Both the position numbers and the translations under genes were made by a program. DNA of 8,254 bases from an archaeon (GTDB taxonomy: Archaea > Hydrothermarchaeota > Hydrothermarchaeia > JALTZZ01 > JALUTC01): the NCBI GenBank assembly GCA_027051265.1, contig JALTZH010000245.1:1-8254 (forward strand), in the 5' to 3' direction. The notes beneath the pieces were generated by a model. That model made no database searches and was not told the DNA's origin. It saw nothing but the letters and a program-made list of their open reading frames with translations. This document shows, piece after piece, positions 3,024 to 7,526 of the stretch (positions are counted from its first letter, which is position 1; the number at the start of each line of letters is the position of its first letter).

Positions 3024-3156
3024 AAATGTGCCCTCCCCGTAACACACCGCATCATTTTGAGTTCATACTACATCAGCGGTGCTAACCCTAGGGAGGGCTG
3101 TAGGGCACGAGGTTAACCCCGTCTCATCATATTCGACGGAGCCGCCCAACGTGCCC
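3024..3156 (-). ncRNA. Two-hairpin box H/ACA guide RNA (pseudouridylation guide)
   Basis: This G+C-rich island in A+T-rich DNA folds, on the minus strand, as two H/ACA units. Hairpin 1: lower stem GGGCACG (3156-3150) with CGTGCCC (3109-3103); pocket TTGGGCGG (3149-3142) and TTAACCT (3116-3110); upper stem CTCCGTC with GACGGGG; an 11-nt loop GAATATGATGA that fits a kink-loop; then T and an ACA at 3101-3099. Hairpin 2: lower stem GCCCTCCC (3098-3091) with GGGAGGGC (3037-3030); pocket TAGGGTTAG and TGTTACG; upper stem CACCGC with GCGGTG; facing U-U and tandem GA/GA (3075-3073 with 3053-3051), the core of a kink-turn, topped by a small AUGA-looped stem; then ACA at 3029-3027. Pocket-to-ACA distances of 14-15 nt fit the family. 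In archaea such RNAs work with Cbf5, Nop10, Gar1 and L7Ae. The promoter is unclear; the exact ends are estimates. Confidence 0.88.
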
Positions 3157-3160
3157 ATTA

Positions 3161-3173
3161 AAAATAAATATTG
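3161..3173 (+). promoter_or_regulatory. TATA-like element for the HTH/zinc-ribbon gene
   Basis: The A/T stretch with TAAATATT at 3165-3172 lies about 30 nt upstream of the ATG at 3201. That spacing would give a transcript starting at or a few nt before the start codon, which agrees with the lack of a Shine-Dalgarno there. The same A/T-rich stretch faces the divergent H/ACA RNA, but it is only about 10-15 nt from that RNA's 5' end, too close for a standard archaeal TATA position. Confidence 0.4.
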
Positions 3174-3200
3174 TTTAACAACAAATTCTATCAAGAAAAT

Positions 3201-3497
3201 ATGCATAAAAAACAAACTTTAGTTGAAAAAATAATCGATATGATAAGAAAAAGACCTATGAGTTTATCTGACATAATTTTTGAATTGGAATTAGATAGAA
3301 AGACAAAAACAATGATGTTAGATTATATATTAAAGATTGAAAGAATTGCTAAACAAAAAGGCTGGAAGTTTATTGTATATGCTGCGGAATGTAAAAACTG
3401 TGGATTTCAATTCAAAAAGAGAATAAAACCACCATCTAAATGTCCGAGATGTAAATCTCAACGAATTATGGAACAGAGATATTATTTAAAAATATAA
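3201..3497 (+). CDS. Small HTH plus zinc-ribbon protein, predicted transcriptional regulator (COG3357-type)
   Basis: A 98-residue protein. Residues about 7-50 (VEKIIDMIRKRPMSLSDII onward) look like a winged-helix or HTH domain. They are followed by a zinc ribbon with C64-x2-C67 (ECKNCGF) and C81-x2-C84 (KCPRCKS), then a short strand to the C-terminus. This architecture matches the archaeal family of predicted regulators with an HTH fused to a zinc ribbon; no target is known to me. I prefer the ATG at 3201 over an in-frame TTG at 3171, because the TTG falls in the promoter-like A/T element and adds a non-conserved-looking leader. It is transcribed away from the H/ACA RNA and its last 12 nt overlap the convergent mgtE gene. 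Whether it regulates a neighbour cannot be seen. Confidence 0.8.
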   Translation: MHKKQTLVEKIIDMIRKRPMSLSDIIFELELDRKTKTMMLDYILKIERIAKQKGWKFIVYAAECKNCGFQFKKRIKPPSKCPRCKSQRIMEQRYYLKI

Positions 3498-4784: not shown

Positions 4785-5061
4785 ATAAATCTCCCATTTG
4801 TGCAAGAATTTATAATTAACTTTATCTCTCTATTACTAACTTGGTTCCGGTAACCTAACTGTTAAGTAGATGAGTATCGTTTAAATAACTCAGTCATTAT
4901 TCAGTAAGTAGGAGTAAAGATTGTATAAGTTTATCTATAGAGTAAGATGGGTATAAATCTCAACGAAACTATATCTATCTAGATAAGATAACTCTTATCC
5001 ATAAATATACCTTTATTCTAAAAAAATAACAAATTTTTACTTAAGGAAAACAACTCCAATA

Positions 5062-5092
5062 TCAACACAGAAGTGTTCTTATTAGGTGTTGA
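5062..5092. repeat. Nested inverted repeats with two alternative stems
   Basis: TCAACAC (5062-5068) is complementary to GTGTTGA (5086-5092), a 7-bp stem with a 17-nt loop. Its inner AACAC is also complementary to GTGTT at 5073-5077 across a 4-nt loop (AGAA). The two pairings exclude each other. The site lies about 70 nt upstream of the S13 start and upstream of its predicted promoter, so an operator-like DNA site is as plausible as an RNA switch. No function is established. Confidence 0.35.
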
Positions 5093-5130
5093 AATCTTAA
5101 ATTTTATTTAAAAATATACTTTAAAGAATA

Positions 5131-5144
5131 AAAATTTATATTAT
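5131..5144 (+). promoter_or_regulatory. TATA-like promoter of the S13-S4-S11-rpoD operon
   Basis: TTTATATT at 5135-5142 is centred about 24 nt upstream of the S13 ATG (5162), the usual TATA-to-start-site distance in archaea. Transcription would begin at or next to the ATG, giving a leaderless first cistron, consistent with the absence of a Shine-Dalgarno before S13. A second A/T element (TTTAAAAATATA, about 5107-5118) lies further upstream and could serve as an alternative. Confidence 0.5.
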
Positions 5145-5161
5145 TATTTTTTAAATATTTT

Positions 5162-5650
5162 ATGGCAACAGAGTTTAAACACATAGTTAGAATCGCAGAT
5201 ACAGATTTGGATGGAAAGAAAAAGGTTGCATATGCATTAGCAGGAATAAGAGGAATTGGAATAAGATTAGGACAAATAATATGTAAACTCGCAAAAATTG
5301 ATTCCAATAAAAAATTGGGAGAATTAAGTGATGAGGAAATTCAAAGAATTGAAGATACGATTAAAAACCTACCAAAACTTGTACCAAGTTGGTTATTAAA
5401 TAGACCTCGTGATCCATTTACTGGAAAAGACATGCATAAAGTTGCTGGTGATTGGGATCTTACAGTTAAAATGGATATAGAATTTCTTAAAACGATCAAA
5501 TGTTGGAGAGGATTAAGACATGCTTTTGGATTACCTGTTCGAGGTCAAAGAACAAGGACAGGATTTAGAAAAGGAAGAACTGTTGGTGTTATGAGAAGAG
5601 CAAAAGGACCAAGAGCTCATGGTTCAAAACAAGAACAGAAAAAGAAATAG
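5162..5650 (+). CDS. rps13: Small ribosomal subunit protein S13 (uS13)
   Basis: Ribosomal protein S13 of the small-subunit head, which contacts the P-site tRNA and the bridge to the large subunit. The 162-residue protein has the archaeal layout: N-terminal FKHIVRIADTDLDGKK, a helix-turn region with ALAGIRGIGIRLG (26-38), PSWLLNRPRDPFTGKD in the middle, and a basic C-terminal signature WRGLRHAFGLPVRGQRTRT followed by FRKGRTVGV. A Lys/Arg-rich tail ends the protein, as expected for rRNA contacts. The ATG at 5162 gives the standard archaeal N-terminus and lies about 24 nt after a TATA-like element, with no Shine-Dalgarno. It is the first gene of the operon; S4 follows after 8 nt. Confidence 0.97.
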   Translation: MATEFKHIVRIADTDLDGKKKVAYALAGIRGIGIRLGQIICKLAKIDSNKKLGELSDEEIQRIEDTIKNLPKLVPSWLLNRPRDPFTGKDMHKVAGDWDLTVKMDIEFLKTIKCWRGLRHAFGLPVRGQRTRTGFRKGRTVGVMRRAKGPRAHGSKQEQKKK

Positions 5651-6145: not shown

Positions 6146-6553
6146 ATGGTAGAGAAAAAGAAAGAAAAGAAGAAAGAAAGATGGGGCATATGTTATATTT
6201 ATGCAAGTTTTAACAATACAATAATTCACATAACCGATATAACAGGTTCTGAAACGATTACTATATGGAGTGGAGGTAGAGTAGTAAAAGCAGATAGAGA
6301 AGAATCTTCTCCATATGCAGCAATGGTCGCTGCTACAAAAGCTGCAGAGGAAGCATTAGCAAAAGGTATTACAGGTGTACATATAAAAGTTAGAGCTCCA
6401 GGAACACATATAAAAACCCCAGGCCCCGGTGCTTTACCAGCAATTAGAGCTTTAGCTAGAGCTGGATTAAAAATAGGAAGAATAGAGGATGTTACTCCGA
6501 TACCTCATGATTCTATAAGAAGACCAGGTGGAAAAAGAGGTAGAAGGGTATAA
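6146..6553 (+). CDS. rps11: Small ribosomal subunit protein S11 (uS11)
   Basis: S11 forms part of the platform of the 30S subunit and binds helix 45 and the E-site region of 16S rRNA. From the ATG at 6146 it has 135 residues: a Lys/Glu-rich start, [19 protein letters not shown], the [18 protein letters not shown] block, [20 protein letters not shown] and the terminal [20 protein letters not shown] typical of archaeal uS11. Two other in-frame starts exist, a GTG at 6125 and an ATG at 6140, but the strong Shine-Dalgarno GAGGTGA (6134-6140) overlaps both or lies after them, and is correctly spaced only for the ATG at 6146. Its TAA stop overlaps the rpoD ATG by one base (TAATG). Confidence 0.97.
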
Positions 6554-7344
6554 TGCTGGATAATATAAAGATTCTAGAAAAAAGCAACGATCATTTAATC
6601 TTTATTTTAGATAATATTGATTTATACATTGCTAATTCTATAAGAAGAGCAATTATTGCTGAAATACCAACACTTGCCATCGAAGATGTAATATTCTATG
6701 AGAATTCTTCATCTATTCATGACGAATTTATAGCTTTAAGGTTGGGTTTAATTCCTCTCATTGCAAAGATTGATGAATTTAATTTTAGAGACAAATGTGA
6801 ATGTAATGGTAAGGGATGCAAAAGTTGTACCGCATATTTCAAACTAGAAGCAGAAGGACCAAAGACAGTATATTCACACGATTTAAAAGTAATTGAGGAT
6901 GATAGAGTAATTGTTCCCAAAAATATTCCCATAATAAAACTTGGTAGAAAACAGAGACTCGTACTAGAGGCTGAAGCAATTTTGGGTAGAGGTAAAGATC
7001 ACGCAAAATGGCAAGCTGGAATTGCAGCATACAAATATTATCCTGAGATTAGAATTAATTATGAGAGATGTACGTTATGTAAGAATTGTATAGAAGAATG
7101 TCCACGTAAAGTATTAAAATTAGAGGATGATAAAATAGTACTAAAAGATGTTATCAGATGTAATTTATGTAAAGCATGCGAGGAAGCATGTCCTGAAGAA
7201 GCATTGAATTTAAACGGAAACGAAAAAAAACTCATATTTAAAATAGAGGTTATAAATAAAAGCTATAAGCCTGAGGAGCTATTCATTAAAGCATGTGAAA
7301 TATTAAAAGAAAAAGCTCAAGAATTAAAAAAGAAACTCTATTAA
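6553..7344 (+). CDS. rpoD: DNA-directed RNA polymerase subunit D (Rpo3) with two ferredoxin-like cluster motifs
   Basis: Archaeal counterpart of bacterial alpha and eukaryotic Rpb3; it pairs with subunit L and starts polymerase assembly. In 263 residues it shows the dimerisation region (LYIANSIRRAIIAEIPTLAI, 24-43, and ALRLGLIPLI, 61-70), then a Cys loop C82-x-C84-x4-C89-x2-C92. The insertion domain has two complete CxxCxxCxxxCP motifs: C173/176/179/183 and C203/206/209/213. The C-terminal helix (about 239-263) completes the dimer domain. Two intact motifs suggest two [4Fe-4S] clusters, as known for Methanosarcina; Sulfolobus D keeps only one cluster. The start overlaps the S11 stop (TAATG), so translation is probably coupled. 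In many archaea L18e and L13 genes come next; here a tRNA gene follows after 96 nt. Confidence 0.96.
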   Translation: MLDNIKILEKSNDHLIFILDNIDLYIANSIRRAIIAEIPTLAIEDVIFYENSSSIHDEFIALRLGLIPLIAKIDEFNFRDKCECNGKGCKSCTAYFKLEAEGPKTVYSHDLKVIEDDRVIVPKNIPIIKLGRKQRLVLEAEAILGRGKDHAKWQAGIAAYKYYPEIRINYERCTLCKNCIEECPRKVLKLEDDKIVLKDVIRCNLCKACEEACPEEALNLNGNEKKLIFKIEVINKSYKPEELFIKACEILKEKAQELKKKLY

Positions 7345-7440: not shown

Positions 7441-7526
7441 GCGGGGGTCGGATAGCCTGGCCAATTCCGCCGGTCTGAGGAACCGGTGGCGAAGAGCCTG
7501 CGTGGGTTCAAATCCCACCCCCCGCA
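7441..7526 (+). tRNA. tRNA-Leu, anticodon GAG
   Basis: This class II tRNA of 86 nt folds completely. The acceptor stem GCGGGGG (7441-7447) pairs with CCCCCGC (7519-7525) over 7 bp, and A7526 is the discriminator. The D arm starts GGAT and contains the invariant A14 and GG. The anticodon stem CCGGT/ACCGG encloses the loop CTGAGGA with anticodon GAG at 7477-7479 (T33 present), reading leucine codons CUC and CUU. A 15-nt variable arm contains GGC/GCC. The T arm is GTGGG-TTCAAAT-CCCAC. There is no intron and no encoded CCA, so CCA is added after transcription. Its high G+C stems in A+T-rich DNA fit a thermophile. The long variable arm and A73 agree with leucine identity in archaea. Confidence 0.97.

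Follow-up and report, generated by a model that had tools for sequence, protein, structure and literature searches.

Results

Location and fold of the RNA

The stretch of archaeal DNA analysed here (the window: 8,254 nucleotides of contig JALTZH010000245.1, from a member of the Hydrothermarchaeia) carries a G+C-rich block between taw2 and a divergent PF0610-like gene. The minus strand of this block, read from 3156 to 3027, is very likely an archaeal two-hairpin H/ACA guide small RNA (sRNA), whose hairpins are homologues of stems II and III in the RNA known as HgcG, Pab40, Pf7 or Afu4. The block has a G+C content of 0.48–0.58 versus 0.17–0.32 in its surroundings, and the segment 3170–3014 folds at −64.5 kcal/mol (z = −6.1), which none of 200 shuffles equalled. 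In the list below, the RNA ends at 3027 and 3156 were set from the structure, and ribosomal positions follow Escherichia coli numbering.

3027–3156, minus strand: predicted two-hairpin H/ACA guide sRNA, about 130 nucleotides (Rfam RF00064 match, fold z-score, same-genus homologue)
3103–3156, minus strand: hairpin 1 (5′ hairpin, stem II-like) with a kink-loop (K-loop) apex (fold and descriptor)
3156–3150/3109–3103, minus strand: lower stem of hairpin 1, 7 base pairs
3143–3149, minus strand: putative 5′ guide strand of hairpin 1, UUGGGCG, complementary to 23S nucleotides downstream of U2554
3110–3115, minus strand: putative 3′ guide strand of hairpin 1, UAACCU, complementary to 23S nucleotides upstream of U2554
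3099–3101 (3101–3099), minus strand: ACA box of hairpin 1, after one U (sequence; kept in the same-genus genome)
3030–3098, minus strand: hairpin 2 (3′ hairpin, stem III-like) with a kink-turn apex (fold and descriptor)
3098–3090/3038–3030, minus strand: lower stem of hairpin 2, 9 base pairs
3082–3076/3050–3044, minus strand: upper stem of hairpin 2, 7 pairs
3083–3089, minus strand: putative 5′ guide strand of hairpin 2, AGGGUUA, complementary to helix 69 downstream of U1915
3039–3043, minus strand: putative 3′ guide strand of hairpin 2, GUUAC, complementary to helix 69 upstream of U1915
3027–3029, minus strand: ACA box of hairpin 2, with no gap after the stem (sequence; kept in the same-genus genome)

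The K-loop of hairpin 1 contains G3134·A3124 and A3133·G3125, and the kink-turn of hairpin 2 contains U3075·U3051, G3074·A3052 and A3073·G3053. In productive archaeal guides, the GA stem is reported to have 10 layers, the 3′ guide strand 5 or 6 nucleotides and the distance to ACA 14–15 nucleotides (PMC4652768). Hairpin 2 folds in textbook 10/5/9 form, in which seven upper pairs are followed by U·U, G·A and A·G, and its pocket lies 14 nucleotides from ACA. For hairpin 1, this distance is 13 nucleotides in the minimum-energy fold and 14–15 nucleotides with one or two G·U pairs open at the base of the upper stem; with one basal G·U open, eight pairs plus G·A and A·G make up the 10-layer GA stem, 14 nucleotides from ACA. 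As is characteristic of the class, each stem-internal loop-stem hairpin is followed after 0 or 1 nucleotide by an ACA (ANA) box, the pocket-closing pair lies 14 nucleotides from it (in hairpin 1 with one G·U open), within the 14–16 nucleotides of the class rule (PMC4652768), and both folds combine a kink-turn or kink-loop with a 10-layer GA stem.

A strict H/ACA descriptor (lower stem of 7–9 base pairs, 3′ guide strand of 5–6 nucleotides, 14–15 nucleotides to ACA, perfect upper stem of 7–8 base pairs, GA/UGA kink motif), applied to both strands of the window, matched just these two hairpins. It found no match in 150 Markov-randomised copies of the window. A preliminary description, made from the sequence alone, had reported a G+C-rich block in A+T-rich DNA, two minus-strand stem-pocket-stem hairpins, an ACA 0 or 1 nucleotide after each, and kink-loop and kink-turn apices. 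All of these hold: fold and descriptor place the hairpins at 3156–3103 and 3098–3030, the ACA boxes follow after one nucleotide (3101–3099) and none (3029–3027), and sheared pairs occur in both apices, with U3075·U3051 in hairpin 2. Its pocket-to-ACA distance of 14–15 nucleotides is right for hairpin 2, fails for hairpin 1 in the minimum-energy fold and is recovered by G·U opening; the span it gave, 3024–3156, is correct as to locus, the exact span lying slightly inside it.

Family assignment and partner proteins

The covariance search proposed in the preliminary description returned an H/ACA family. With permissive cmscan settings, the sole RNA family at the locus was RF00064, HgcG (Pab40), matched at 3209–3022 on the minus strand with 69.7 bits and E = 1.4e-17, leaving 83 model positions deleted. 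HgcG is the Pab40 H/ACA guide RNA (PMC4652768). The pocket strands of the last hairpin, which in this family carries a helix 69 guide pocket, equal the Rfam consensus, and U1915 is among the top sites of that consensus hairpin. The same-genus copy scores 71.6 bits against RF00064. Despite the sub-threshold score, we regard homology to HgcG as clear. This is the single HgcG-like locus in the genome.

The genome also encodes the partner proteins of the class, Cbf5 (469 bits), Nop10 (77.7 bits) and L7Ae (182.6 bits), all above cut-off, together with a weak match to Gar1.

Predicted ribosomal targets

Searches for 16S and 23S ribosomal RNA (rRNA) in the organism's own assembly found none, and we therefore used the rRNA of relatives: 23S from seven class relatives and 16S from eight, placed on the E. 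coli numbering and comprising 557 conserved uridines. On these sequences, the two strands of each pocket are complementary to rRNA segments that flank a uridine. The best site of hairpin 1 in its 10/6 fold is 23S U2554 in the A-loop (mean score 32.0; next site, 16.0), and that of hairpin 2 in its 10/5/9 fold is 23S U1915 in helix 69 (mean score 28.8; next site, 17.6), where the duplex is perfect (GUAAC-U-A-UAACCCU). None of 150 shuffled guides reached the score at U2554, and none of 150 that at U1915, for the window RNA and for the same-genus copy alike. The pockets of the same-genus copy choose the same two sites with higher scores. When the fold registers of hairpin 2 are left free, other sites score close to U1915, so this assignment rests on the productive fold. 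The RNA very probably guides pseudouridylation of two large-rRNA uridines, predicted to be U1915 and U2554.

It is unlikely that the H/ACA guide acts through hairpin 1 mainly on U2586 or on U2555 rather than on U2554. Full closure of its upper stem lets hairpin 1 pair with U2586 (score 19.5; 29.5 in the same-genus copy), the Haloferax stem II homologue is assigned to Psi2621, which is E. coli 2586 (PMC2584109), and the middle hairpin of a more distant copy (genome G005) pairs better with U2555. However, the U2586 register has an 11-layer GA stem and 13 nucleotides to ACA, which lies outside the published productive rule, and it contains mismatches; the U2554 score is far above that of U2586 in both genomes and beats all shuffles. 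A dual-register guide, in which hairpin 1 would act on U2554 after one pair opens and on U2586 from the closed pocket, is improbable.

Conservation in relatives

Among 23 genomes of the phylum, a close copy of the RNA was found only in a genome of the same genus (G022). A covariance model trained on the two same-genus copies recovered no further homologue in these genomes, and neither did a search with the pocket pattern; the Rfam model alone detected more distant copies with three hairpins (G011 and G005). The G022 copy has nearly identical pockets and keeps both ACA boxes as well as nearly all pairs. Two pairs in the upper stem of hairpin 2 change from C-G in the window to U-A in G022, a compensatory change on both sides, and the pair beside the kink motif is C-G in the window and U·U in G022 for hairpin 1, and U·U and C-G, respectively, for hairpin 2. 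Sliding the structure by 1–3 columns lowers the paired cells from 95% to 37–53%.

The surroundings of the two copies differ. In G022, a TrkH-like frame (named by eye) lies upstream of the RNA and a PF0610-like gene downstream in the same direction, whereas in the window taw2 comes after the RNA and the PF0610-like gene is oriented divergently from it. Conservation of the whole RNA through a change in its orientation and in one neighbour points to an independent gene. Relative to window 3027–3497, L009 1216–1634 of the same-genus genome has the guide RNA inverted with respect to the PF0610-like gene and the TrkH-like frame in place of taw2. No such RNA lies upstream of the taw2 homologue of highest identity (L002, 68%).

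A relic, that is, a formerly functional H/ACA gene that has lost transcription, is very improbable. A promoter scan found none above chance, with models that do not cover archaeal promoters, but the same-genus genome keeps pockets, boxes and stems despite differing flanks, its changes are compensatory, and no other HgcG-like locus occurs in the genome.

Longer three-hairpin HgcG-like RNAs are present in two class relatives, at L010 1501–1824 and L011 1501–1782; the partner of their first hairpin is 23S U2496. The last hairpin of these RNAs is without the two nucleotides found at the pocket top of the window RNA and could fit U1915 or U1917.

The taw2 boundary and other features of the window

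An open reading frame (ORF) with a GTG start at 3047 runs from the 3′ hairpin into taw2, and it was reasonable of the preliminary description to warn that annotation could absorb part of the RNA into that gene. The L002 taw2 homologue begins at the residue matching ATG 2909, so the overlap between taw2 and the RNA is probably only mechanical. The product from 2909 has a TRM5-TYW2 domain, and its best NCBIfam match is Taw2, below the cut-off of that model. A chance G+C-rich structure, or a part of the taw2 coding region or leader as the mechanical ORF overlapping the 3′ end of the block might suggest, is extremely improbable given the Rfam E value, the lack of descriptor matches in randomised windows and the L002 start, and is for the most part refuted by the homologue's occurrence in another context, where taw2 does not adjoin the RNA and the neighbours are the TrkH-like frame upstream and the PF0610-like gene downstream.

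Elsewhere in the window, a gene for a Thg1-type tRNAHis guanylyltransferase (1094–1798) lies near taw2 on the same strand. A match to the C/D RNA sR35 at 1478–1433 was rejected as chance (17.5 bits; cut-off, 60). About 350 bases upstream of a uS13-like gene (4806–5161; ORF 5162–5650) contain no long ORF and no Rfam match. RNA polymerase subunit D (6553–7344) has two inserted 4Fe-4S cluster motifs, and a lone tRNA gene with a long variable arm (7441–7526) lies between the end of rpoD and a nitrate-reductase-gamma-like gene.

Discussion

Like HgcG/Pab40/Pf7 of the Thermococcales, the RNA has H/ACA hairpins in tandem that carry kink motifs and ACA boxes. In the last hairpin the pocket strands, GGGUUA and GUUAC, are shared with those RNAs, and hence so is the predicted target, U1915 (Psi2016 in Pyrococcus abyssi). 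Pf7/Pab40 and Afu4 are reported to make P. abyssi Psi2016 (H. marismortui 1956, E. coli 1915) in vitro, and this activity is credited to stem III of Pab40 (PMC2584109). The numbering offset at 1915 in the relatives, +93 to +112, agrees with the equation of 2016 and 1915. Since the Pab40 target is U1915 and the offsets agree, hairpin 2 can be taken as the stem III hairpin. Unlike HgcG/Pab40/Pf7, the window RNA is devoid of the stem I guide, whose Rfam consensus has U2496 among its best-pairing sites, and its hairpin 1 pairs with U2554 of the A-loop.

The three-hairpin copies of G005 and G011 help to place hairpin 1. Their first hairpin pairs with U2496, likely the equivalent of the Pab40.1 target L2588; the four best sites of the middle hairpin include A-loop positions (2555 in G005 and 2554 in G011), and the three best of the last hairpin include helix 69 positions. 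From this order and these sites, hairpin 1 is best read as occupying the stem II position. Placing L2588 in the A-loop, and then at E. coli U2571, proved wrong on both counts, as judged by the numbering offsets and by the pocket of the G005 hairpin (U2496). Because L2588 is neither of these, hairpin 1 does not correspond to stem I of Pab40.

Other known guides show partial likeness. Pf7 has three stems, whereas Haloferax has homologues of stems II and III only (PMC2584109). Like the window RNA, Haloferax volcanii thus has stem II-like and stem III-like hairpins and no stem I, the stem III-like hairpin guiding helix 69; in contrast, the window hairpins are adjacent and the first fits U2554 best. 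For Afu4 of Archaeoglobus fulgidus, Af4.3 is a relative of Pab40.3 that targets L1970, and the reported target of Af4.2b, L2601, would be E. coli 2554 or 2555 in the A-loop according to numbering offsets; Afu4 is a three-motif RNA of a distant euryarchaeon, and the likeness concerns the reported targets. Yeast snR10 guides Psi2923 of 25S rRNA, which is E. coli U2554, the same uridine as predicted here; it is a eukaryotic small nucleolar RNA, and homology of the RNAs is not claimed. In the same numbering, yeast Um2921/Gm2922 correspond to E. coli 2552/2553 (PMC2584109).

Collectively, the window RNA is a divergent relative of HgcG/Pab40/Pf7/Afu4, a well-supported and ordinary finding that will not surprise a specialist; that its nearest relative is a known RNA lowers its novelty. 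The architecture, the homology, the conservation of pockets and boxes, the complementarity to the rRNA of relatives and the presence of the protein genes are directly supported. The identity as an H/ACA sRNA proposed in the preliminary description is borne out by the Rfam match, the homologue, the specific conserved rRNA targets and the encoded proteins of the guide ribonucleoprotein (RNP).

Several observations weigh against this interpretation. The score of 69.7 bits is below the RF00064 gathering score of 77, which leaves the RNA formally outside the family, and one hairpin of the HgcG model is absent (two hairpins instead of three tandem motifs). Hairpin 1 needs one G·U pair opened, and its target-adjacent pair is G·U. 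A single close homologue was found, and on two sequences the covariation statistics are weak, with 118 of 500 shuffles as high. The lower stems, where the preliminary description had proposed to seek compensatory changes, vary little or not at all and yield no covariation signal; such changes occur in the hairpin 2 upper stem. Gar1 is matched below cut-off (23.4 bits, E = 5.7e-5). Finally, the assembly is without rRNA, and the targets were scored on class relatives only.

We infer that the RNA is transcribed, is assembled into an RNP and brings about the modifications. In this model, L7Ae would recognise the kink-loop in hairpin 1 and the kink-turn in hairpin 2, and Cbf5-Nop10-Gar1 would dock onto the ACA boxes and lower stems, so that each pocket would present one 23S uridine. 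Hairpin 2 would direct modification of U1915 in helix 69 through the pocket strands GUUAC and AGGGUUA, and hairpin 1 that of U2554 in the A-loop, with U2586 as a possible weaker second target in the alternative register.

The analysis places in an uncultured archaeon a guide RNA that is missed by the curated Rfam cut-off. If hairpin 1 did work in two registers, helix 69, the A-loop and the peptidyl transferase centre would all be served by one RNA of 130 nucleotides, in a lineage where stem I has been lost. The site predicted in the A-loop would coincide with that of yeast snR10, making one ribosomal uridine a testable case of H/ACA guidance in both domains. More broadly, the RNA supports a picture in which the stem III hairpin is an ancient guide for helix 69 U1915 and its companion hairpins were lost or shifted in register between lineages.
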